A DNA stretch of 64,000 nucleotides from Sialis fuliginosa (lineage: Eukaryota; Arthropoda; Insecta; Megaloptera; Sialidae). The stretch is taken from contig OY540810.1 of NCBI GenBank assembly GCA_961205875.1, positions 8,060,001 to 8,124,000 of the forward strand, given 5' to 3'. This document shows positions 17,746 through 59,725 of the stretch, piece after piece. The notes beneath the pieces were generated by a model. That model was not told where the DNA came from, searched no databases, and worked only from the letters and a program-made list of their open reading frames with translations. The position numbers and the translations under genes were made by a program. The stretch's first letter is position 1. Every line of letters begins with the position of its first letter.

Positions 17746-17780
17746 AAAATTAATTGTTATTATACATAAATATATGCATT

Positions 17781-17955
17781 TTGGCTTCTGGGTATAAACC
17801 ACGTCGATTGGCCGTTCTATCGGCCAACGTTTCGTTACACATTGCAGTGGAATTTTTCAATAAATATGTCCAGTGTGCAACAAAACGATAAACGACCAAA
17901 TCAACGCGGCTTTTATCCAGAAGCCAAGATCCATATCAAGATCACCGTGGAAGCC
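17781..17955. repeat. Imperfect palindrome with TTGGCTTCTGG arms, Penelope-tail-like
   Basis: TTGGCTTCTGGGTATAAACC at the left pairs with GGCTTTTATCCAGAAGCCAA at the right; between them is a second hairpin TTGGCCGTTCTATCGGCCAA followed by CGTTTCG. The right flank continues GATCCATATCAAGATCACCG. The same phrases occur inside the palindromic element at 28851-29053. On the minus strand CGAAACGTTGGCCGA resembles the tails of Penelope-like elements; that assignment is tentative. Confidence 0.5.
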
Positions 17956-19314
17956 TAAAAGCTTATGCACAGTTCTGTTTTACTTACCCCTATATTTGCC
18001 CCATTAACTGTGATTTGTGTGCAGAAGAATTATAACATAAAAATGAAATTTTATATAGGAAATAAACTCTTACACATTTATATCGAATTGGCGGTTGATA
18101 AGATTTTTTATATTCGCGTGGGAAATACTATTTTGTTACTGTTTCACTACATATTAAATTTAATAGTGTGGGTGTTTGTTTGTATTATGTCAGGCAAGTT
18201 TTGACTGTTTTAATTTATCGATGACAATTTGCGAGTAAAGGTATATTTAGGCGTTGACGTAAACAGTTATTTTTCGAAATTGTATTATTAATTTTAACAT
18301 CGCAATAAAATGATTCCACGTCATTTTCTATATTAGTCAGCTTTATTTTTTAGCTATTTCGTTATGTATGCTAAAATATATTTTTCTTCATTATAAAAAA
18401 ATTAATTATTTTACTTTCTCGTCTAATTTTACCTACTTGTAATTAGTGGAAGTAAAATTCCCCAAAGCAATATAATAAGTATTTCATTATAAAGTACAAT
18501 GTTTAACATAATATGGGTATTATAAAAAAAATTATCTAGCCTAGACTAAAATCATACCAAATACTTTCTACAAGGTAAAAAAATATATTTGTGTAAATAC
18601 TAAATTGGAGGGTTCAAAACATAAATCCAAAATTTATATTTCGTACAAAATTCATTCAAAAATGTTTGGAGCCTAGACAACATACAACTATGAAAATATG
18701 GTCTAACTGTATTTAAAAACTATTTTTTTATTCAAGGCTAAACCCTTATCTATATGTATTAGGATAAAGATAAAACGTTTAAAAATGTATATATGCATAG
18801 TCCAAAAATTGTGGTCTATATGTTTTTTTAGTCTTCCAATTTCTAAAATCGATAACACAGCTGCCATTTGTATTGGAAATACCTCAGGCATTAATCATTC
18901 TAATTATTTTTCACTTGACATTGATTTTAAAAAATCAACATTACAGAATGAGTTGTATTAATAACTTTCAGGTTAAAAATGTAGAACGTCAAAGGATTTA
19001 AATGTGTTATTATTTTAGTTTTGTGTCAGTAGTGTTTTATAAGTGAGAAGTAAACATAAATATGGACTATATTTCTCAGTTGGTTGATCTTTAAGTCGTT
19101 ATGCACAGGTCATACATATATATACCTGTTCTAACTGTAGTTTTACGTTTTGAGAATGTTCAATGAGATTTTAGACATGATTTTACTCGAATCGTGTAAT
19201 AAATTATACATAATAGAACATTCAACCAATGTTTTGTATATTTGTTTGATGATGAATAGGTCGGTTATTCTTAGAATATTAATGTGTCATTATAGTTAAA
19301 TTTAAATGTCACTT
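17956..19314. other. AT-rich DNA, nothing recognised
   Basis: No coding frame, RNA gene or transposon end is supported; the 79-codon frame at 17965-18204 has low-complexity hydrophobic AT-driven composition. Confidence 0.4.
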
Positions 19315-27200: not shown

Positions 27201-30200
27201 GATCTAGACTAGCACTTCAGACTGCAAGCTAGGCACCTTATCATCTGCAAAAGATATAACATTTTTATCTTATCTATAACTTCTATACTACATACACAGA
27301 CACACACCCGTCGACAAACAGGTTGTTTTTAAAAATAGTCCACATAATGAGCAAGTTTTTATTGATGAACTACTTCACCAAGTTTTTATTGATGAACTAC
27401 TTCACCGAGATCAGAACTTTATACGCAATATCTATACAGAAACCGGGCCTTGTAGCGATTTCAAGAATAAATAACTCATGCCTTCGAAATGATTTTGTAA
27501 TTTTAATGAGATTAGACATTGATGAATCAATAGGTAAAAAATTTCTATTTGTCACCATTCATTAATTCATTTAATATTTGGTTTGGATAATATATAGATA
27601 TCTTTTTCAGAGGCGCATACTTTTGGGCCCTCTAATTTTATCCGGAGGGGGAGGGGTATACATAATTAAACGTATTTGTATCATTAATCATTACATTACA
27701 TACATATTATACTGCATGCATTTATAATTATTATGAAGTATTAATCGATAATTATAAAGTATTAGTCAAAATTCGATTTTTTATTTACCAACAATTCGAG
27801 TGAGGGGAGTACGTGTAAGATTGAAATCACGAGTTTATTTTATTTTAATACACTTGCCATATCACGATGTAACTTAATTTTGTATACTATTTATTATTTA
27901 AAATATCAAGGTAAATTTAAAATAAGATATTTTAAAGTTCAGAAACAGATCCTTAAAAAAATATGTTCTTATTAAAGAGTTTATTTTTCGAAAGAAAAAC
28001 TTCGTAATTCGTTCTATTTTGAATTCAACAATTTTTCCTCTATCTTCAATAACGTGGAAAATATGCTAAAAAATGCGGAAAAACGTAAAAATTCGCTTGG
28101 AAAACCGGGAATAGTCAGGGAAATTTATTTCAAAGAATTTTTGTTTTTTATACATATATACAAAATCGTAAATATCTCGGCTCCAATACGAGATAGGGGG
28201 TTGTTCCCCCTCTCCCCTTAAAACCCACTCCCACCGGATCGAATGAAACTAATGACAACCCTCCGTACTTGACAGGGAATGAAATATTAAAAAAAAATTA
28301 TTCATTTCCTATACAAAATCGTAAATACCTCGGATCTTACAAGGGCAACTCTTCAACTTGTTGTTTCCGATTTTCTTTATATTGAAATATGTTGTAGAGG
28401 GAGGTTCCCTGATAACACCTATACCTGGTTTTGGGCGTAGACGGGTAATAGTTTAGAAGATATGACCCAAAATATTTTTTAATGCTGCATATATACCTAT
28501 TTGTTTAAACTATAAACACAAGCGTCTGTTGGCCCAGCGGTAATGATAACAGATCGATAATCGATGGGTCCGTGGTTCGATTCCGTGTTTATTATTATAC
28601 TCTTTAATTTTAATTTTAATTTTTAATTGCAAACAGTGACTTTTTAAAAATATATTATTCTTCTGTAAAATATCTTACGAATTTATTTGTTTTTTAATGT
28701 TTATTTTATCAAAATGTGCAAATGTACACAATTTTGTTGGTAAACAATTCAATATTGTAAAAATTGTAAAAGTTTATTTATGAACGGTTGTACACTAGGA
28801 AAATTTTATAAAAGATTGAAATTTAACACAGTTAACTACATTTATACAAGTCTTGAGGCTACCGCGGTGATCTTGATATGGATCTTGGGTTTTTGGTGTA
28901 AGCTGCGTCTTCATTTAAATTAATAATTATTAATTTAAATTATTATTATTGTTAATAATAATAATTAATTTAAATTATTATTATTATTAATTATTAAAAA
29001 TTATTAATTTAAATGTAGTAACTGGATCTTGGTTTCTGGGTGTAAACCGCGTCAATCTTTTATAAAATTTTCCTAGTGTACAACCTTTCATAAATAAACT
29101 TTTACAATTTTTACAATATTGAATTGTTTACCAACAAAATTGTGTACATTTGCACATTTTGATAAAATAAACATTGAAAACAAATAAATTCGTAAGATAT
29201 TTTACAGAAGAACAATATATTTTAAAAAAGTCACTGTTTGCAATTAAAAATTAAAATTAAAATTAAAGAGTATAAACACTGGGAATCGAACCACGGACCC
29301 ATCGATTATCGATCTGTTATCATTACCGATGGGCCAACAGACGCTTGTGTTTATAGTTTAAACAAATAGGTATATATGCAGCATTAAAAAATATTTTGGG
29401 TCATATCTTCTAAACTATTACCCGTCTACGCCCAAAACCGGGTATAGGTGTTATCAGGGGACCTCCCTCTACAACATATTTCAATATAAAGAAAATCGGA
29501 AACAACAAGTTGAAGAGTTGCCCTTGTTAGTTAAAAATAAAAAGTGGTACAAAATTCTCAAAACATCATTCAATTCTTTACATAAAAATATACCTTAAAA
29601 CCGCTGTAAGAAATATCCTATCTACTTTAAAAAAAAAAAAAAAAAAATTATAGCGAAATAAAGAAAATCAGAATTTTAATTACGTGCATTATTTTAAATA
29701 TTTTAAACTCTTTCCTCCCAACAAACCTTTGATCTCATTTAACCGAATCTGCATCTCTTAATATACAGAGATCCCTATGTTGAGAATGACTATGTGGACA
29801 CCCTATTGACAGGGACGTATTTACGTAAAGACGATAAGGGCACTTATCCAGAGTAGCAAATTTAAGTTTTTTGATCAACGCTTAAAATATTAAAATAATC
29901 AAAATTATTTTGGTTTTATTATACTTTTTTTGACCATTGACTAAAACAATCGAAAATATTTTTAGGACCGACAAATCGTCTTTGCAGGATTTACAAACAC
30001 GTTAATGTCCATTGTATAGGTATTAGGTATATTAAATAAAAGAAACTGCCTTGTTTATAGTTTATAGGTACATTACATACATAACATAATTAATGAGTTC
30101 TTTAACAACAACTATTATTTTGCCATACACATACATAATTTAATTACATACACAATTTCCTTTCTAGATTGATCTTGACTTTCAAATATAATATTTCGAT

Positions 30201-48200: not shown

Positions 48201-51200
48201 GGGTCACGCTCATGACGCGATTTAATTATTACAAAAAAAAATTGTTTAATGATGAATAATATGTGTATTATATGTATTTTATATTCGTATTATTTTTTTC
48301 TAAACTACATTTCTAGTGCAAGTAATAGGAGAACAAAGTAAAAAAAACAACAGTACTTCTTTGAACTCCTTATATAAAATTATTTATGTTCTGATAAAAA
48401 TAAAATGAGTTTTGTGTATTTGTATTTTATTATTATAAAAAGTCGTTTTAATAGATTATAATCATTATATTATTATGAGTTATTTTGAGTTTTTTACTTT
48501 CAAAATATATTCACGAAATTACGTCCGACAAAAACGTACGATTATTTTATTTCACGCTCACATTGGGTCACGGTGGAGACACGAAAAATTTACAGCTTGC
48601 TCTTAGCTTAATGCAATATATACCTTAAGTTTAAATTTATAAGAAAGATCGTAATTTATTATAATTTTTCTGCAACTAATATGACATATTTTTCCAGTTT
48701 ACGATCATGCATGGCCGGAAATGAAACTCCATCATCTCCTCGAACCGATCGAAGTTTACGTATCTGGGTACTAGAAGCGAAAGGAATTACTTCACCTGGC
48801 GGAAAGCGTAGACACTCACAGCCTCTACGCTGTGAAATATATCTAGATGATAATCTATGGGCGAAAACAGCGGCTAAAGGCTGCAGGTCACCAGAAGTAG
48901 GTACAAACAAAGGAGCGAAAACAGAATTAGGGACAGGAGCTTTCTGGGGTGAACTATTTGACTTTGCAGCTTTACCTCCAATACAAATGTTAAAATTGAA
49001 GTTGTTGAGAGAACCAGCAAAGGCACAAAGAAACGGGACATACAAACCAACAGTTATAGGTGAGTGACATAATATGTAAATTTTCTTTAATTGTTTCAAC
49101 TGGCATATCTTATGGTTCATTTAAGCAATTGATGGATTTTGTGGCTTAATTTACTGTTAGTGAAGACGCGCACTATCAATTTTTTAGTTTGACAAAAGTT
49201 TAGTTGGTTCGGCAAGAACCATTGGTTTATGGAACTGCAGTTGATTAAACCCAATGTTTCTCACTGAACCAATTAAAGTAACAACTAATCAAAAATTGAT
49301 AATGCGCACTTTCACTTTATGTATCAACTATTTGAATAAATTGAAATATCAACGATACACTCATATTTATTATAAACAGGTATTTATTTTATATTATAGA
49401 GTAGTAAATACCATTATATTCATAATAACAGGGTACACAAAACTGAAGGTAATAAAAGTTATTTTGATAAATTATAATGAATTTATAGTTTTTTTTTGTA
49501 TACTGACAAGGGGACGGTCACAGAGGTGCAACGAGTTATGGGTAGAGAATCCGCGTGGTTATAGTTAAGGCAGGTACTAATTAATCCCCACTAGACTTGG
49601 ATGTCAATTTGTCCCCGTTTCCGAGAAATCGTGGGTAGAAATTTACCACTGTATAAGTCATAAACTACTGCACTGAAACAATAATATATTTGGGTGAGCA
49701 GTCAATGTCCAGGACTCTTTTTTTACCATTGATGTTAGTTTTTCTTTGAATGAAGTAACGTGTAAGAAGTTTTTTTTTAAATAAAATAAAGCACCCAGGG
49801 ATATAAAATATAAGTACAATAATCTGCTTTATTATTTGAAAAGTTCTTAAAATTAGTTATATATTCAAGATTATACAAAATTTTAAAAATAATGTTTATG
49901 AAATATCTATTTTTATATCAAGTTTAGCAACATATTTCAATTTTATTAAAATTCATGAAATCAAATATCTATTGTCACAAGTTATTTTAAATGATCTTAC
50001 TATAGTTTTGTACAAAATAAACTTCAAAATTTTTCAAAACAAATTGAATATTTTCTACAAACCTTTTAACAATTTTTGAAATAACAAAGCAGATTATGTT
50101 ATAATAACGGGGATGAGTTGGCACCCAAGTCTAGCAGGTATTAATTAGTATCTGTCTCAACTATAACCACACAGAGTCTCTACCCGTAACTCGATGCACC
50201 TCTGTCTGACCGTCCCCTTGTGAAACCGAATCCGTGGTCTAAATTGCTTCATCACATCAGCTATTTTAAATAAGCCAAAAATGACAATTTTGGTCATATT
50301 TATGAATATTTTACCAAGCAGCATATTTTTTCTTAATTTTTTTGTTTATGGCAACAAATAGTAGTTTCCCTTTAAAGCGATCTTTTACTTTTGATTGTAC
50401 GATTTTTTTGTGTAGTATAGTCCATTGCATCTTATTTTTAAAAATATTATATCTTGAAACTAATCCTCTTTGGTAAAAAAAATCGTACAGTGAAACATAA
50501 AAATTCATTTTCAAAGGAAAATATATTACTATTTGCTGTCGCGAACAAAAACATGGAAATAAATTCATAAAAATTACTAAAATTGTCATTTCTCACTTTT
50601 TAGTTAGGATAACTCAAAAACTTAATGTGATATGCAAAAACGGATATTATTTATGGATTTAGTAGAATAAGTTTAGTATAAAACATCAAAAATATTTAAA
50701 AATCAAATGTCAGGTTTGCCTGTGTTATTGTTTTCAATAAATTATATTTATTTACAGGCACAGTACAAATTCCGATACGTGACATTTCGTCTCGTTATTT
50801 CACCGAAAAATGGTATCCAGTAGACATAAATGACAAACCTGGAAGAGAAGTTCCTTCATTAAGAGTGAAATGTCGATTCCAAGCTATTCATATTTTACCG
50901 GCAGCTGTTTATATAGATTTCTTAACCTTCCTCAAAACAGACTATAAGAAAATATGTGAAATTTTAGAACCTGCCATAGGTGAGAACATGTGACATTAAA
51001 AATAAATATTTTTGTTTTTAAAATTTTCTCACAACTATTAACTTTCTTTGTATTTCAGGTGTAAAGGCCAAAGAAGACATTGCAACAGCTCTTGTTTTAG
51101 CACTGCAACACGAAGGTCTAGCAAAACCTTTTCTAGCAGACGTAGTAATGTTAGACGTAGAACGCGTAGACGACCAACGTCTAACATTCCGAGGTAACAG

Positions 51201-54200
51201 TCTTGCGACCAAAGCCATGGAAGCTTATTTGAAACTTACAGGTGACCGATACCTAAGACAAACACTCGTTGATGTCGTGGATGCAGTCGCTAATGCTGAT
51301 TGTGAGGTTGACCCCTTGAGGGTTACGGGAGGTGCTAGTGCGCTAGCTAAACAGCAGAGGGCATTGAGACAAGCAGTCGAATTAGCTTGGAGTAGGGTGT
51401 TGAACAGTGCTAGAATATTTCCTGTCGAGTTGAGAGAATGTTTTGCAGCATTTAGAGAAAGATTGAGTTTGGCAGGTAGAGATGACGTTGCTGATCATTT
51501 GATATCCGCATCTGTGTTTTTGCGATTTCTTTGTCCAGCTATTCTTAGTCCAAGCTTATTCAATATTACAAATGGTAATTCCTATATTTGTATTAATAAA
51601 TTTAAATATTATTTTTGTATAATTACTACATTTGATTTATTTGTTATAGAATATCCAAATGAAAAAGCTGCACGGAATTTGACTTTAGTTGCAAAAACAC
51701 TTCAAACATTAGCTAACTTCACTAGGTTCCAAGGCAAAGAAAACTTCATGGAGTTTATGAATGATTTCTTAGAAAGGGAAGCACCGGCAATGAAACAATT
51801 TTTACGGGATATTTCGGTAAGTTTATCTATTGTAATAACTTTAATGTGTCATCAGATTATGGGTAATATAATTTTGAATACACCATTTGTGATACTACAC
51901 AATTTTTTTTCATTTCAAAACAACTCTTCACATATTTTCTTAGTCAATGTTTTGTGAAATGGTCATAAGGCTGTTCTGAAGAAGAAAAAAACACTCAATA
52001 CAAAATATATACCTTGCAGCTCAATTTTAAGAGAAGAGGGGGTCCCGTTTATTATTTAAGTAACATGGGAAAATGATTATTTAGTACTAAAATTTGTATT
52101 ATTGATTCATGAAAACTGATGAAAAAAATTTTATTGCCATAAATTAAACACCTTTTAATATATTTTAATTGTTTTTTAGTATCTAAGAATCATTTAATTT
52201 TTTTACTAAACTTTAAAAAAATTTCTAGACTCGAACATCTGATGAGGACTTACGAGGTCTAAGACGCCACAGTCAGCTTGAATTTGACGGACATATTGAT
52301 TTAGGAAAACAACTAAGTATCCTTGCAAATTTATTAAGCGAATGCTTAAATAAAGTTTCTTCTTCAAAACTTCAAGAATTGGACCCATTGACTCGTATTT
52401 TAGATGATCTCCATTTACAACAACGTGGAGGACCCATGCGTTCTGGCTCTACTCCACAATCACCTGATTCCCTCCAAAATAATATTTTTAGGTAATTTAA
52501 AAAAAAAAATTTATTAAATTAAATGTTCTAAAATAAAATCATTTTCAGATTTAATGACCCGACTGTCCACAACAGCAATACCAATTTAAACTCATCAGCA
52601 GCTACTACTCCAACTAGTAGCCCTTTTGAACCACAACCTTTAACGCCACAGTTAAAACCACAGCTCTCTCAGCAATACATTCATGTACCTAACACATCGG
52701 AACCGACAGCAATAAGATCTAACACTTTACCTCGCAATGGCCACCAGGTCACTCTGACTATACCTGGAGCTGAGTTAGAATTGGAACCCGCAAGAGCTTT
52801 TGTCAGTAAAAGTCCATGTACTCCACGTCGGACTGGACCAAACGAACAAGATCTTTCACAGTTATCTGATCTTTTGAGGTAAAGTGTTCTTTTTTCTGGT
52901 AAATTATTATTGATATATTTATATAGTGGAGTAAAGTAGCACAAATTTTCTTCAATAAAGAACTTATTAATGTGTTCTAGGTATTAAGGGGTACGTGTAA
53001 CTAAAATCCTTACATTGGTCGATCTCCAGAAGTAATTTTTTTTTACTTTTTTGAAAAATAATTATGGTTTCTCTTCTACATTTATTTTAAATATCTCTGG
53101 TTCTATTAGTTAGATTGCAAAAATATCCGTTATGTTCATTATGAATTCCCCTACAAAAATAAATAAAGTAGACGTTCCATAATATAAACCCGGTTGAGCA
53201 CTGTACCTTCCATACTGTGAATCCCCATTCCTCAAAGCCCCTATATGTACAGCTATCATTTATAAAAGAATTAATGGCACTGACATGGTTCACAGTATAG
53301 ATTGGCTGCTGTAGTTAAAAACTAAGTTTATTACATAACCTAAAAATAAAAACAGTAAATTTTTATTTTTTTGTAATCTCAAATAAGTGTGCCAAAATGT
53401 TGCTTCTTCCTTTTTTAAGAAAATTTTTACTGATATTACTCAACTATACGAATAAAATTATGTATTGAAAAATGATGAGGCTTTTGCTGTTCTTAAGAGC
53501 CAATCTCTAAACCAGTAAGTATTTTTAAAATATATTTACAGATATGCAGATGACAGTGCTAAAGGATCGAACGTTTCAATAAGTCAGCTATCAAACGTTG
53601 CAAGTTCAGGATATCAAAGCTTTGCTTACAGCCAATCTAGCAGCCCTGTAGATCACCCTAACGGCATACATCACAGACAAAATGCGCATCCCCGTTTAGG
53701 CCTCAAGTCACAAGGCTTAGCGTTTACTAATCCAGTGTACAGCGCAGACTTTGGTCCAAAGAGAAGGTTAGAGAGTTCAAGTTCAGAAGAAAGACTTAGC
53801 GAAGTTGACAAAAACAAGGAAGAAGTGAACGAAAAGAGACGTACGCCCAGAACGAATCCCACTGTAACGTATAGAAAAGGGTACGGGGTCGTTTCTGAAC
53901 CGGAACGGAGGATCACACCTCAGAGGAATGAAAGCATTGAATTTGACAACCATAAGAATTACATATGCGTTGCAAGGGATGTAAGAAATAATGGATTTGA
54001 AGGACCGTATTTCAGCAGAGATTTGACTGATAGGAATCATAGGTATGTGTAGCCAGCTTTAAAGCTTCTGCAGTGCTATTTACCTGTCTCTTGGCTTCTA
54101 GGTATAATCTGGACATTAATTTAGCTAGATCAATGACCAGAACACCTAAAAACTAAGAGATAGAATTATTATTATTATTATTATTATACTCGCTTCGTCC

Positions 54201-55427: not shown

Positions 55428-58231
55428 GAAAATTTGAATGTTTATTAAATGCAGTCATGCCTATTTATTTTACAAATGACTTTAAATTAACTAACTTTGG
55501 TACAAAACAACTAAATGTAACTTAAGTTTTATGTTTTCTTTTGCATTTTGAAATAATTGTTTTAACTTCTGAAGGTATGCTATTTAATAAATGTTTTTAC
55601 TGACTATTTTTTTTTAATAAGGTATGGCTGTATCATGATTTATTTTAGGGTTACCAAATATCGATTAAAAGATAACAATATTCTTCTTTTAAAAATCAAT
55701 AGATTAACCGATCAAGTGCTGACTAAAATATTTGTAGTTAACGCTAGTATTAGAATTTCCTATACATTCACATTAAAACAAAATCTCAAAAAAGGATGTA
55801 CAAGTAACCCTATTTATTTATTTTTAGAAGGTCTGTAGGGTCCACAAATTCTTCTATATATATTTATACCAACATGAATGTTTTCGCAATATTTTTTTAA
55901 CAACTAAATTGTTTTGACATTAAAATAAAACGTAATTTGTAGTATTTGCAAATTGATTATTGTATATGTTAGTAATTGTACCTATAAACGTTATTTATAA
56001 TTTATTTTTATTGTAATATCTAAATTTTCACGACAAATTCAGTTGATAGAATATTAAATATGACTAGTACAATTTCTTCAAAGATTATTTTTACCGATTC
56101 ACTACTTACTATATTTATAGTTTTATTTTTAAATACCTATGTGTATTTCTACATATACTTTTTTAATTTTAGTATTATGTAAATATAAGTATTGTAATTT
56201 ATTATTTTTTAATTGTAGTTTCTTAAATATAGATCTGTTATGATTTTTTAAGTATTTATAATTTTTTTAAACATTAAACAGTGTCATATGTACTTCAAAA
56301 GCATTTGGCTGATTTTGCATTGCGTTAAATTATGATTTTATAAGAAAATATCTTATAATATTTTATGAAGTATAAAGCTTTAGCAAAGAACACAGCAACC
56401 TTGATAATTTATACTGTAAAAATGAATGAGCCTGGCTCTCCAATGCCAAAATAATGCTGGCTAAAGAAAGTGCCAGGCTCATTCATGTTTCAACGCTGTA
56501 TTGTTTTCAAAGGCTTGAAAATACATTTGATTTATTAATTATAAAATATTTATTCAATATAAAAGTGCCAAAACAAATTTTTACTCTAAAAATTCTTTAA
56601 CATTTATTTTTAAAATTAGTATCAATATTCAAAAGTACTGATATCAAAAATTGGTTATTATAAATTATTGAAAATTATAAGAAAATATATTTTTTTTATT
56701 CTTAACTTACATTGATTTAATTTTTTTTTAAACTTAATTGATATAAAGTTAAGAGAAAAAAACAGTTTAAAGTTGAGATGTATAAAATTATTCAAGACAA
56801 ATTCAAAATATAAGGGGGGTTCTATGAAAATATAATTAATGCTATTTTCAAATATGCAAATTAAAATTTATTTAAATTATCTATAATAAATGAAATATGT
56901 AATCAAATAGAAAATATCCTGTAGATTCTGTAAATTTACAAATGTAAATCATACACGAATCGTAACATTTATTATTTTTGATGTTCAGTACTATTGAATA
57001 AACATATTTATAAAATAAAAAATTGAAATTAGTAATTACAATTTTTATAAATCTTTTAAACTATTAAATCATTGTATTTTCAATACATTAAAATTTGATA
57101 TTTTACAACTTTAAGGGCACAATAAAATTATAAATGTTATTTGTATAAAAACATTATTCAAATAAGTACAATGTTAGCCATTTCATTATGAAATTCAGAA
57201 ACTAAATGTGTACATTTTTTAATATTTATATAATTATTGATTAATTTTATTGTAGATATGTATATCTAAAATCTATATATAAATCAATATTGCACTTTCT
57301 ATTATTTTGTAAACGTAGTAACAGTATTGTTTACGTTAGTATTATATACTATATATACACACATTTATATAGCCAAAGAAATAAATATTAAATTAATATA
57401 TAAAAGTATGAGTTAATTATTTTTCCTTACTACAAATTTTAAATACAGAATGACGTATTTCAAAAAATTCACTAATAAAATATGAGTTGTCAATACATTG
57501 TACTTTCAAATACTTTCAATAAACAATTGGTTGTTTTTTCTTAACAAATAACGATGCTAGTAGTGTAATCTATTTGTCTGACAAAGTAAAATTCACGTAA
57601 GATTGTTTTGTTTCCAATTTAAGAGCATTTATCGGGTTGTACTAATATTGTTTATGAATTATGCAAAATATAAAATTTCTTAACAGAAATATTATCAAGT
57701 ATTCTAATTTTTTTAGGAATAGTAGGAGGGGTGAATGGGGAAAACTGAAGCGTGTAATCATATATTAATCAATGGTATATTATGAAAGCAGTTAATATGA
57801 AATATGTTTAATTCACCCCTGTATTTTACTGTTCCCCACTTCACTCTACAGAACACCACTATTTATTTTTAGTTTTTAGTGCTTTTGCAATGCTTTTGTT
57901 GTTTCTTTTTTGAACAATAAATACAAAACAAACATGAAGTTTGTGATCTTCATCTCTGAGTTAACCTATCTGTCACTGTGATCTGTCTTACTAATAATAA
58001 GTAATAAAAATATTATAATAATATATAATTTGTTATTATTAGAACTTCTGATGGTATTATTGGCTTAATAATAAAAATTGTCGTACATATTATAATAAAC
58101 ATACAAATTCAGTTATTCGATGTATTGATTTATACTGACAGCACATTGTTAGTAAATGTTGTACATTTTATTAATAATAACAGTGAAGAGTGGCCTTTAA
58201 ATTAAAGTGTTCTTATTATAATATTTTCAAA
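55428..58231 (+). other. RasGAP 3'UTR and intergenic DNA
   Basis: First AATAAA signal at 55586-55591, 160 nt after the stop; further AATAAA hexamers occur downstream (for example 57379-57384), so a longer 3'UTR is possible. A palindromic element at 56376-56516 lies here. At 57725-57850 AGGGGTGAATGGGG and ATTCACCCCTG..TTCCCCACTT are loosely inverted. Otherwise AT-rich. Confidence 0.55.
56376..56516. mobile_element. Small palindromic element, family M5 copy 1
   Basis: AATGAATGAGCCTGGC and GCCAGGCTCATTCAT form a near-perfect stem with a loop of about 45 nt. Outer arms (AAAGCTTTAGCAAAG / TTTCAAAGGCTTG) are weaker. Same inner word AATGAATGAGGCTGGCAC as the copy at 63335. Confidence 0.65.
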
Positions 58232-59725
58232 ATGGGAAACGATACAGAAAGTACTAAAAACGATGTTATAGAAGAAAATACTATAACAATAAAGTTTACA
58301 TATGGAAAAGATTTTTATGAAAAGAAAGTCGACAAATGTTTTGAAAATAGCATTGGTATTCTTTCAAAAGAAATACCTACATTAGATTTCAATATAAAAT
58401 TATTGAAATATCTTGATTTATCATCATCAAAACTGGATATGATACCTGCGGCAGTATCTGAGTTAGAGTTTCTTGAAAAATTAAATCTATCTCATAACTA
58501 CATTGTAGACGTATCGGTATTTATGAATAACTTATCTAGGCTAGAAGAACTTGACTTATCATATAATAAAATAAAAGAATTTTTTGCACCAAATTGTGCT
58601 TTATCATTATCAGTATTAAAAATCAACAATAACAATTTTGAGAAGGTTCCTTATTGGATTTGGAGCACAAATTGCCGCCTTATTGAATTAGATGTCACTG
58701 GAAATCCATTAAATGTAAATGCAAATGGAAATGGTGGAATATATAAAAGTTCATTTAGTACTACAAGATTCAGGAAATTATCAATAGCAAATTGTGGATT
58801 GGGTGATAAAGATATAGAAATTTTACGTGATTTGCCTTATGTATCGATTTTAAACATAGGTAATAATGGAATGTGCAATTACATGAATTACTGGACTTTT
58901 AATTTAAAAGCAATACAATCAAGAATGTTTTTAAAGGAATTATACTTATCAAATATGGGATTGAAATGTTTACCAATTACAATATGTGATCTGAAATTAA
59001 TAAAAATATTAGATTTAAAGAATAATTATATTGATGTTTTGCCAGATGAATTCAGCAAATTAACTTCTTTAGAAATATGCAATTTATCTAATAATCATCT
59101 TTCACATTTACCCAAAAATTTTGAACAGTTAAAACATTTGAAGAAGTTGTTTTTATCTAATAATTTTCTTTATTCATTACCTGATATAAATAAAATGATA
59201 GAATTGTGTGTTTTTGATGCATATAATAATAATATCATAAAAATTGATATTGAAGAATTTAAGGAATCGATTAGACTTGATTTAGATAGTAACTACATAT
59301 CAATTACAGACTCAGTTTATATCAAATCTAGAAATAAATTACGCGAGGAATTAAAACTTTTTGATAGATTAGATGGACCCAAAATCGAAATAAAAAATGA
59401 TGAAATTGACAATGATACTAATAAAAGTTATTCTGAGGATGAATGTTACGGTAACAATGAAGAGGAAGAAGAAATCCCTAATAATAATGAAGTATCTAAA
59501 ATTGTTAATCATAATGAAGAAAATGACAATGAAGAGGAAGAAGAAATCCCTAATAATGAAGTCGTATCTAATAATGTTAATCATAATGAAGAAAATTGGG
59601 ATGAAAATTTTTCAGATTCTGATTACGTACCATATAATGTTAAAAATGAACTACCTAAAACAATAAAAAATCAACAATCATATGATAATTATGACTGGAA
59701 TGAAATTTTTAGAGATGTCGACTAA
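58232..59725 (+). CDS. Leucine-rich-repeat protein with acidic tail, intronless, 497 aa
   Basis: Start chosen at ATG 58232 (MGNDTESTKND); the upstream in-frame GTG at 58190 is ignored. Residues about 55-380 form some 12-13 LRRs of the LxxLxLxxNxIxxLP type: LLKYLDLSSSKLDMIP, LEKLNLSHNYI, LEELDLSYNKI, LKILDLKNNYIDVLP, LEICNLSNNHLSHLP, LKKLFLSNNFLYSLP. The intracellular, SHOC2-like class is implied because there is no signal peptide or membrane segment. Residues about 395-497 are acidic and Asn-rich with a 24-residue tandem duplication (NEEEEEIPNN...VNHNEEN) and short aromatic-acidic motifs WDENFSDSDY and YDWNEIFRDVD at the end. I do not recognise an orthologue; likely a protein-binding scaffold. 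It is single-exon and very AT-rich; it may be an old retrocopy or a genuine intronless gene. Confidence 0.85.
   Translation: MGNDTESTKNDVIEENTITIKFTYGKDFYEKKVDKCFENSIGILSKEIPTLDFNIKLLKYLDLSSSKLDMIPAAVSELEFLEKLNLSHNYIVDVSVFMNNLSRLEELDLSYNKIKEFFAPNCALSLSVLKINNNNFEKVPYWIWSTNCRLIELDVTGNPLNVNANGNGGIYKSSFSTTRFRKLSIANCGLGDKDIEILRDLPYVSILNIGNNGMCNYMNYWTFNLKAIQSRMFLKELYLSNMGLKCLPITICDLKLIKILDLKNNYIDVLPDEFSKLTSLEICNLSNNHLSHLPKNFEQLKHLKKLFLSNNFLYSLPDINKMIELCVFDAYNNNIIKIDIEEFKESIRLDLDSNYISITDSVYIKSRNKLREELKLFDRLDGPKIEIKNDEIDNDTNKSYSEDECYGNNEEEEEIPNNNEVSKIVNHNEENDNEEEEEIPNNEVVSNNVNHNEENWDENFSDSDYVPYNVKNELPKTIKNQQSYDNYDWNEIFRDVD
59459..59602 (+). repeat. 72-bp coding tandem duplication in the LRR gene tail
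   Basis: GAAGAGGAAGAAGAAATCCC starts at 59459 and again at 59531, exactly 72 bp (24 codons) apart. It creates open frames in other phases and on the minus strand (59369-59584), which are shadows. Confidence 0.85.

Follow-up and report, generated by a model that had tools for sequence, protein, structure and literature searches.

A recently active palindromic non-autonomous DNA transposon family in Sialis fuliginosa that carries a tRNA-like, pol III-type unit in its arms

A palindrome found in a contig of Sialis fuliginosa (OY540810.1) combines the marks of a cut-and-paste transposon with tRNA-like pol III promoters. Within the window, by which we mean the whole 64,000-nucleotide stretch of DNA that was analysed, positions 28340-29526 form an element with inverted arms, terminal repeats and a short target duplication, and each arm contains an A box and a B box of the tRNA type. 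Is this locus a single transposon with a passenger, a pair of SINEs that landed in opposite orientation, or, as the original prediction suggested, a built-in source of dsRNA?

The element is a palindrome whose two arms are inverted relative to each other and match over 480 aligned positions (Table 1). Its termini read CAAGGGCAAC...GTTGCCCTTG with TTA on either side, and the inverted arms of 470-480 bp, terminal repeats and TTA duplication originally described for the locus are all borne out. No stop-to-stop frame of at least 110 aa occurs within the window element, which thus has no transposase of its own there. Parts of the unpaired centre (28853-28908 and 29023-29052) share a motif, 82-83% identical, with an inverted pair at 17775-17804 and 17904-17959; this motif belongs to a second, unnamed repeat family, possibly nested in the centre. 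The insertion site itself lies within or next to another repeat: a 27-bp direct repeat (28157-28183 and 28310-28336, 93% identical, 153 bp apart) abuts the target duplication. Downstream of the element, a + strand reading frame at 51022-51954 contains a RasGAP domain, and a location of the element within an intron of this gene is plausible. An intact 512-aa leucine-rich-repeat reading frame lies further along the + strand, at 58187-59725.

Table 1. Features of the palindromic element and its flanks, in positions of the window
Feature	Position	Strand	Basis or context
TSD TTA, left copy	28337..28339	.	sequence; family context C|TNA|G in 26/33 elements
Whole palindromic non-autonomous DNA transposon, 1187 bp	28340..29526	.	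arm alignment, TTA flanks, relatives
Left arm, 481 bp, first letters CAAGGGCAAC	28340..28820	+	96.9% identical to right arm
Left A box TGGCCCAGCGG	28530..28540	+	box pattern, zero mismatches
Left B box GGTTCGATTCC	28574..28584	+	box pattern, zero mismatches
Left T4, T4, T5 runs (28608, 28614, 28620); putative pol III terminator	28608..28624	+	
Unpaired centre, 231 bp	28821..29051	.	AT-rich stretch between direct repeats 28879-28909 and 29023-29053
Right T4, T4, T5 runs; putative pol III terminator	29246..29262	-	
Right B box, exact	29282..29292	-	sequence
Right A box TGGCCCATCGG, one base off left copy	29326..29336	-	sequence
Right arm, 475 bp, inverted	29052..29526	-	alignment to left arm
TSD TTA, right copy	29527..29529	.	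sequence

The claim that each arm holds a correctly spaced box pair pointing inward also stands: the start-to-start distance from A box to B box is 44 in both arms, a tRNA-type spacing, and both pairs point toward the centre. A strict box pattern with zero mismatches gives one match in the window (the left pair), as opposed to none in 100 dinucleotide shuffles and none genome-wide when the pattern is read backward as a control, so the left pair is not a chance occurrence; the right pair fails the strict pattern by a single changed base in its A box. The T-run clusters of both units are likely pol III terminators, judging by their sequence. The boxes are present in both arms, but the ‘two’ promoters of the original prediction are not independent finds, since they are one sequence doubled by the palindrome: the segment comprising A box, B box and T-run sits in the arm, and is hence found twice in every intact element.

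The source genome of the window, 392 Mb in 20 contigs, contains at least 42 matches to the left arm, with 40 of 270 candidates scored. Thirty loci that were cut out comprise 27 elements, each with a pair of inverted arms, although some arms are partial. Once ten further stretches are included, 37 places were examined, and two inverted ends are seen in 33 and one end in four. Among five more places, L101 (492 bp) and L102 (417 bp) are short, degraded elements with both ends, and L103-L105 have one end in the stretch fetched. In total, two inverted ends are found at 35 of the 42 family places and a single end at seven, where the rest of the element is truncated or lies outside the sequence examined. 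At one single-arm locus (L066, 3623-3778) the arm stops at position 152 and gives way to a perfect inverted repeat, not related to it, whose arms are 71 bases long and which looks like another palindromic insertion.

The hallmarks of cut-and-paste movement recur throughout this family. The 33 elements scored by script range from 374 to 1457 bp, with 21 copies at 1398-1432 bp, and the ends of the TIRs are constant across many copies. A 3-bp TNA duplication flanks 31 of the 33 (15 TTA, 8 TAA, 5 TCA, 3 TGA), and the two elements for which the script found none, L023 (one T short at its right end) and L068 (left end set 18 bases too far in), both show a TNA duplication by eye. The full C|TNA|G target, with all four bases represented at N, surrounds 26 of the 33, as well as L101 and L102. 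Paralogous empty sites, lacking the element and one TNA, are available for two inserts, L018 (in L024) and L026 (in L064); a third candidate (L030 in L013) was left uncounted because of its poor alignment across the junction.

Comparison of arms and copies indicates that the palindrome moves as a whole. Within elements of the 21-copy subfamily the two arms are 97.0-98.3% identical over ∼400 positions, while whole copies compared pairwise have a median identity of 99.2% and a minimum of 98.4% (gaps left out); three pairs of copies inserted at different places reach 100%. In a tree of arms, whose groupings were read without support values, all 22 elements of 1363-1432 bp (the 21 and L022) divide their arms between two sister groups. 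Because the arm groups split in this manner for each element, and copies resemble one another more than arms do, the palindrome was copied whole, small arm differences included, and recently. Each of the three window-type elements (L001, L004 and L006) has its own two arms as neighbours in the tree, which suggests that arms are also evened out within an element. Both arms therefore travel jointly as one unit, leaving 3-bp duplications and clean empty sites, and the whole palindrome is one non-autonomous DNA transposon, of which the 21-copy subfamily was recently mobile.

The tRNA-like unit has accompanied this family for some time. It is found in every subfamily seen that has long enough arms, and is degraded in relatives of ∼80% identity; the older relatives L101 and L102 keep a degraded unit in one arm, so its association with the family is an old one. 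Of 70 arms (from the 33 elements and four single ends), 57 retain the B box GGTTCGATTCC exactly, the other 13 including truncated arms and broken boxes, and the box pairs of most young copies carry at most one changed base. In L061, L062 and L070 (508, 506 and 884 bp), the palindrome junction or arm break falls in or directly behind the B box, at arm positions 238-245, in what are apparently two separate structures; such breaks may favour the pol III-type unit.

Taken together, we are confident, if short of certain, that this is a recently active, palindromic, non-autonomous family, most likely mobilized by a PHIS-type DDE transposase acting in trans, with a C|TNA|G target as in NuwaII, and that it carries a pol III-type unit as a passenger. 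As a composite MITE family it is real and recently active, and its passenger is unusual. Its history may have begun when an ancestral element took up either a tRNA pseudogene or a SINE head; an inverted duplication would then have made the palindrome, and the unit would since have been carried along as a passenger, doubled by the palindrome, with movement in trans presumably provided by the DDE transposase, of a PIF/Harbinger-related (PHIS) kind that uses C|TNA|G as does NuwaII. Transcription, if it occurs, would yield one and the same short RNA from either arm, in the same sense, ∼90 nt long and terminated at the T-runs, and dsRNA would be expected only from pol II read-through or leaky termination. 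As an example of a tRNA-type pol III unit that is spread by a DNA transposon rather than by reverse transcription, and in an inverted double form, the family is both clean and recent. Its 21 near-identical copies within a single genome also make it easy to ask whether pol III units in DNA transposons are active or help the element.

How closely does the passenger still resemble a tRNA? ARAGORN at default stringency, run on the window, calls no tRNA in the element, and the Rfam tRNA model, at E-values up to 10, detects nothing in the window copy and four relatives; the segment keeps tRNA-type boxes and, as far as its sequence tells, is decayed as a tRNA. In whole-sequence comparisons with 29 tRNA genes of the genome (an incomplete set of isotypes), each set against the best of 100 shuffles that keep base composition, the main subfamily scores at best 54 versus 46 for shuffles (Glu and Asn) and L029 51 versus 46 (Glu), whereas the window copy reaches 50 versus 53 (Lys) and L061 45 versus 45 (Ile). 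Scores thus exceed those of shuffles in two of four subfamilies, making whole-sequence similarity weak evidence of a tRNA origin; since these scores are not consistently above shuffles, it is the boxes, and the distance between them, that make the case for such an origin.

One alternative grants the transposon and holds that the tRNA-like unit is maintained in it by selection, with TFIIIC or pol III opening chromatin, insulating the element, or yielding a small RNA that aids transposition. The presence of the unit in each subfamily with long enough arms (degraded in the ∼80% relatives) and the exact B box of those 57 of 70 arms speak for such selection, and a link between transposon proteins and TFIIIC is made conceivable by work in a fish, where knockdown of a PIF/Harbinger-derived MADF protein reportedly reduces how much TFIIIC is bound to a 7SL gene nearby (PMC11893794). 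Substitution patterns do not bear this out. Parsimony gives 1.07 changes per site in the tRNA-like segment versus 0.62 and 1.14 in neighbouring arm segments, 1.27 in the A box and 0.55 in the B box (6 changes over 11 sites), from an alignment in which young copies predominate, the first 30 positions (1.63 changes per site) seem inflated by misalignment, four poor arms of 70 were left out (L008_A, L065_B, L066_A and L067_B) and seven were trimmed. At the sequence level, the boxes do not clearly show extra constraint over the surrounding arm, and selection on the boxes was accordingly set aside as giving no clear signal in changes per site. The boxes are, moreover, broken in degraded copies, the Rfam tRNA model is silent in the five copies scanned, and we consider maintenance by selection improbable. 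An exact 21-mer of the tRNA-like segment has no match in viral contigs.

A related proposal is that the arms carry working pol III units, such that young copies recruit TFIIIC, a short tRNA-like RNA is made from both arms, and the transposon gains from it; the advantage may be open chromatin, insulation, or replication forks that stall at the unit and help make the palindrome. We regard this as doubtful at best, although, if true, type 2 pol III promoters in the inverted repeats of a DNA transposon would constitute a new strategy.

The dsRNA proposal holds that pol III promoters, either paired or with one reading through, generate complementary RNA that is diced into siRNA. A single RNA spanning the element (1187 nt) is predicted to fold into a near-perfect hairpin with a minimum free energy of -801 kcal/mol, and most young copies keep their box pairs with no more than one base changed, as this proposal would have it. 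The geometry of the promoters, however, points the other way: inward promoters in inverted arms read identical sequence, so the two box pairs do not give the complementary RNAs originally envisaged, and because the RNAs become complementary only past the centre, no dsRNA arises from the promoter pair itself. Termination signals weigh against read-through as well. Counting from the left B box, the first T4 starts at the 24th base after it, nine runs of T4 or longer lie between that box and 28900, and in each of the 57 family arms whose B box is exact a T5 run (and likewise a T4+ run) follows within 60 nt; in the 506- and 508-bp elements the centre comes immediately after the B box, and the strand that follows an intact B box carries T5 runs within the loop. 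The read-through hairpin of the original prediction is opposed, for pol III, by these T-runs, but may arise from pol II, as with any inverted repeat. Pol III-driven dsRNA is thus disfavoured by both promoter geometry and T-runs, we give it very little credence, and inward promoters in inverted arms are not by themselves makers of dsRNA.

The SINE question was addressed genome-wide with the pattern TGGCNNAGNGG-N24-44-GGTTCGANTCC, which a SINE with another A box would escape. Of its 57 matches, 44 lie in the palindrome family and 13 are tRNA-like: twelve look by sequence like tRNA genes for Leu or Ser (some called by ARAGORN, some in the Rfam list, the rest the same as or very similar to those), and the thirteenth, C13:4535264, is tRNA-Gly-like, is not called by ARAGORN and does not resemble the head of the palindrome family. 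Neither the strict-pattern matches nor the loci examined include a free-standing SINE with the family's head, or copies of the unit with variable-length TSDs of their own; single SINEs landing independently were looked for and not seen, and the cut-and-paste reading survives. Two SINEs inserted independently in opposite orientation would account for a tRNA-type head followed by a T-run, but are rejected on the family's anatomy and have next to no likelihood, given two inverted ends at 35 of 42 places, a single 3-bp TSD that flanks the pair as a whole in 31 of 33 elements, homology that runs ∼185 bp upstream of the head as far as the TIR, and the lack of any free-standing head under the strict box pattern. 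Of the proposed fusion, a cut-and-paste-type element (TIRs, 3-bp TSD, two empty sites) with a tRNA-type head in each arm is supported.

An autonomous partner for the passenger-carrying transposon was not found through TIR patterns, a search with DDE_Tnp_4, the open reading frames of L066 and L069, or five single TIR matches, at least eight others lying outside that set. The 75 matches to the TIR ends, some of which are due to chance, as a backward control gives 18, include no convergent pair spaced 1.5-10 kb apart, and none lies within 30 kb of a DDE_Tnp_4 match among the matches listed (150 of 189 candidates scored). DDE_Tnp_4 matches are many in this genome, none of those listed being linked to the ends of the element. 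About 50 of the 146 listed DDE_Tnp_4 (Harbinger-type) matches, counted by eye, fall at ∼2.3-8.1 Mb of one 16.8-Mb contig (C14), some of them with long open frames.

Several known systems share part of this anatomy. Palindromic or fold-back MITEs of insects and nematodes have long inverted arms, a short centre and no transposase, all of which apply here; unlike them, the arms of the present family contain a pol III-type unit, and we know of no palindromic or fold-back MITE with such a unit in its arms. tRNA-derived SINEs possess an A box, a B box and a T-run at tRNA spacing, as do our arms; in contrast to SINEs, no single copies were seen, and the TSD is of the 3-bp kind made by a DNA transposase. 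A literature search, mostly at the level of titles and the openings of abstracts, turned up no paper recognised as describing a palindromic DNA transposon whose arms contain a pol III unit.

The target preference is that of NuwaII, a group within the PHIS superfamily for which the C|TNA|G target with a 3-bp TNA duplication is a hallmark, TIRs mostly start with GG and are 13-46 bp long, autonomous members encode a DDE transposase and a Myb/SANT protein, placement is by phylogeny, and the twelve host species given include no insects (PMC4482050). Like NuwaII, the palindrome family has a 3-bp TNA duplication in C|TNA|G and cut-and-paste anatomy; unlike NuwaII, its TIR starts with CAAGGG, its arms extend to ∼480 bp, and it lacks a transposase and has a tRNA-like unit inside. 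Given these differences in the sequence and length of the TIR, and since the searches above yielded no partner transposase, we liken the family to PHIS/NuwaII without filing it as a member. The nearest precedent found for part of a SINE within a MITE is MER6/MER6A, a Mariner MITE that contains the body and tail of a V-SINE without the tRNA-related head (PMC6887750). In both cases a SINE-derived piece is spread inside a non-autonomous DNA transposon; in contrast to MER6, the palindrome has only the tRNA-like head, with its boxes and T-runs, doubled in inverted orientation within a PHIS-like element.
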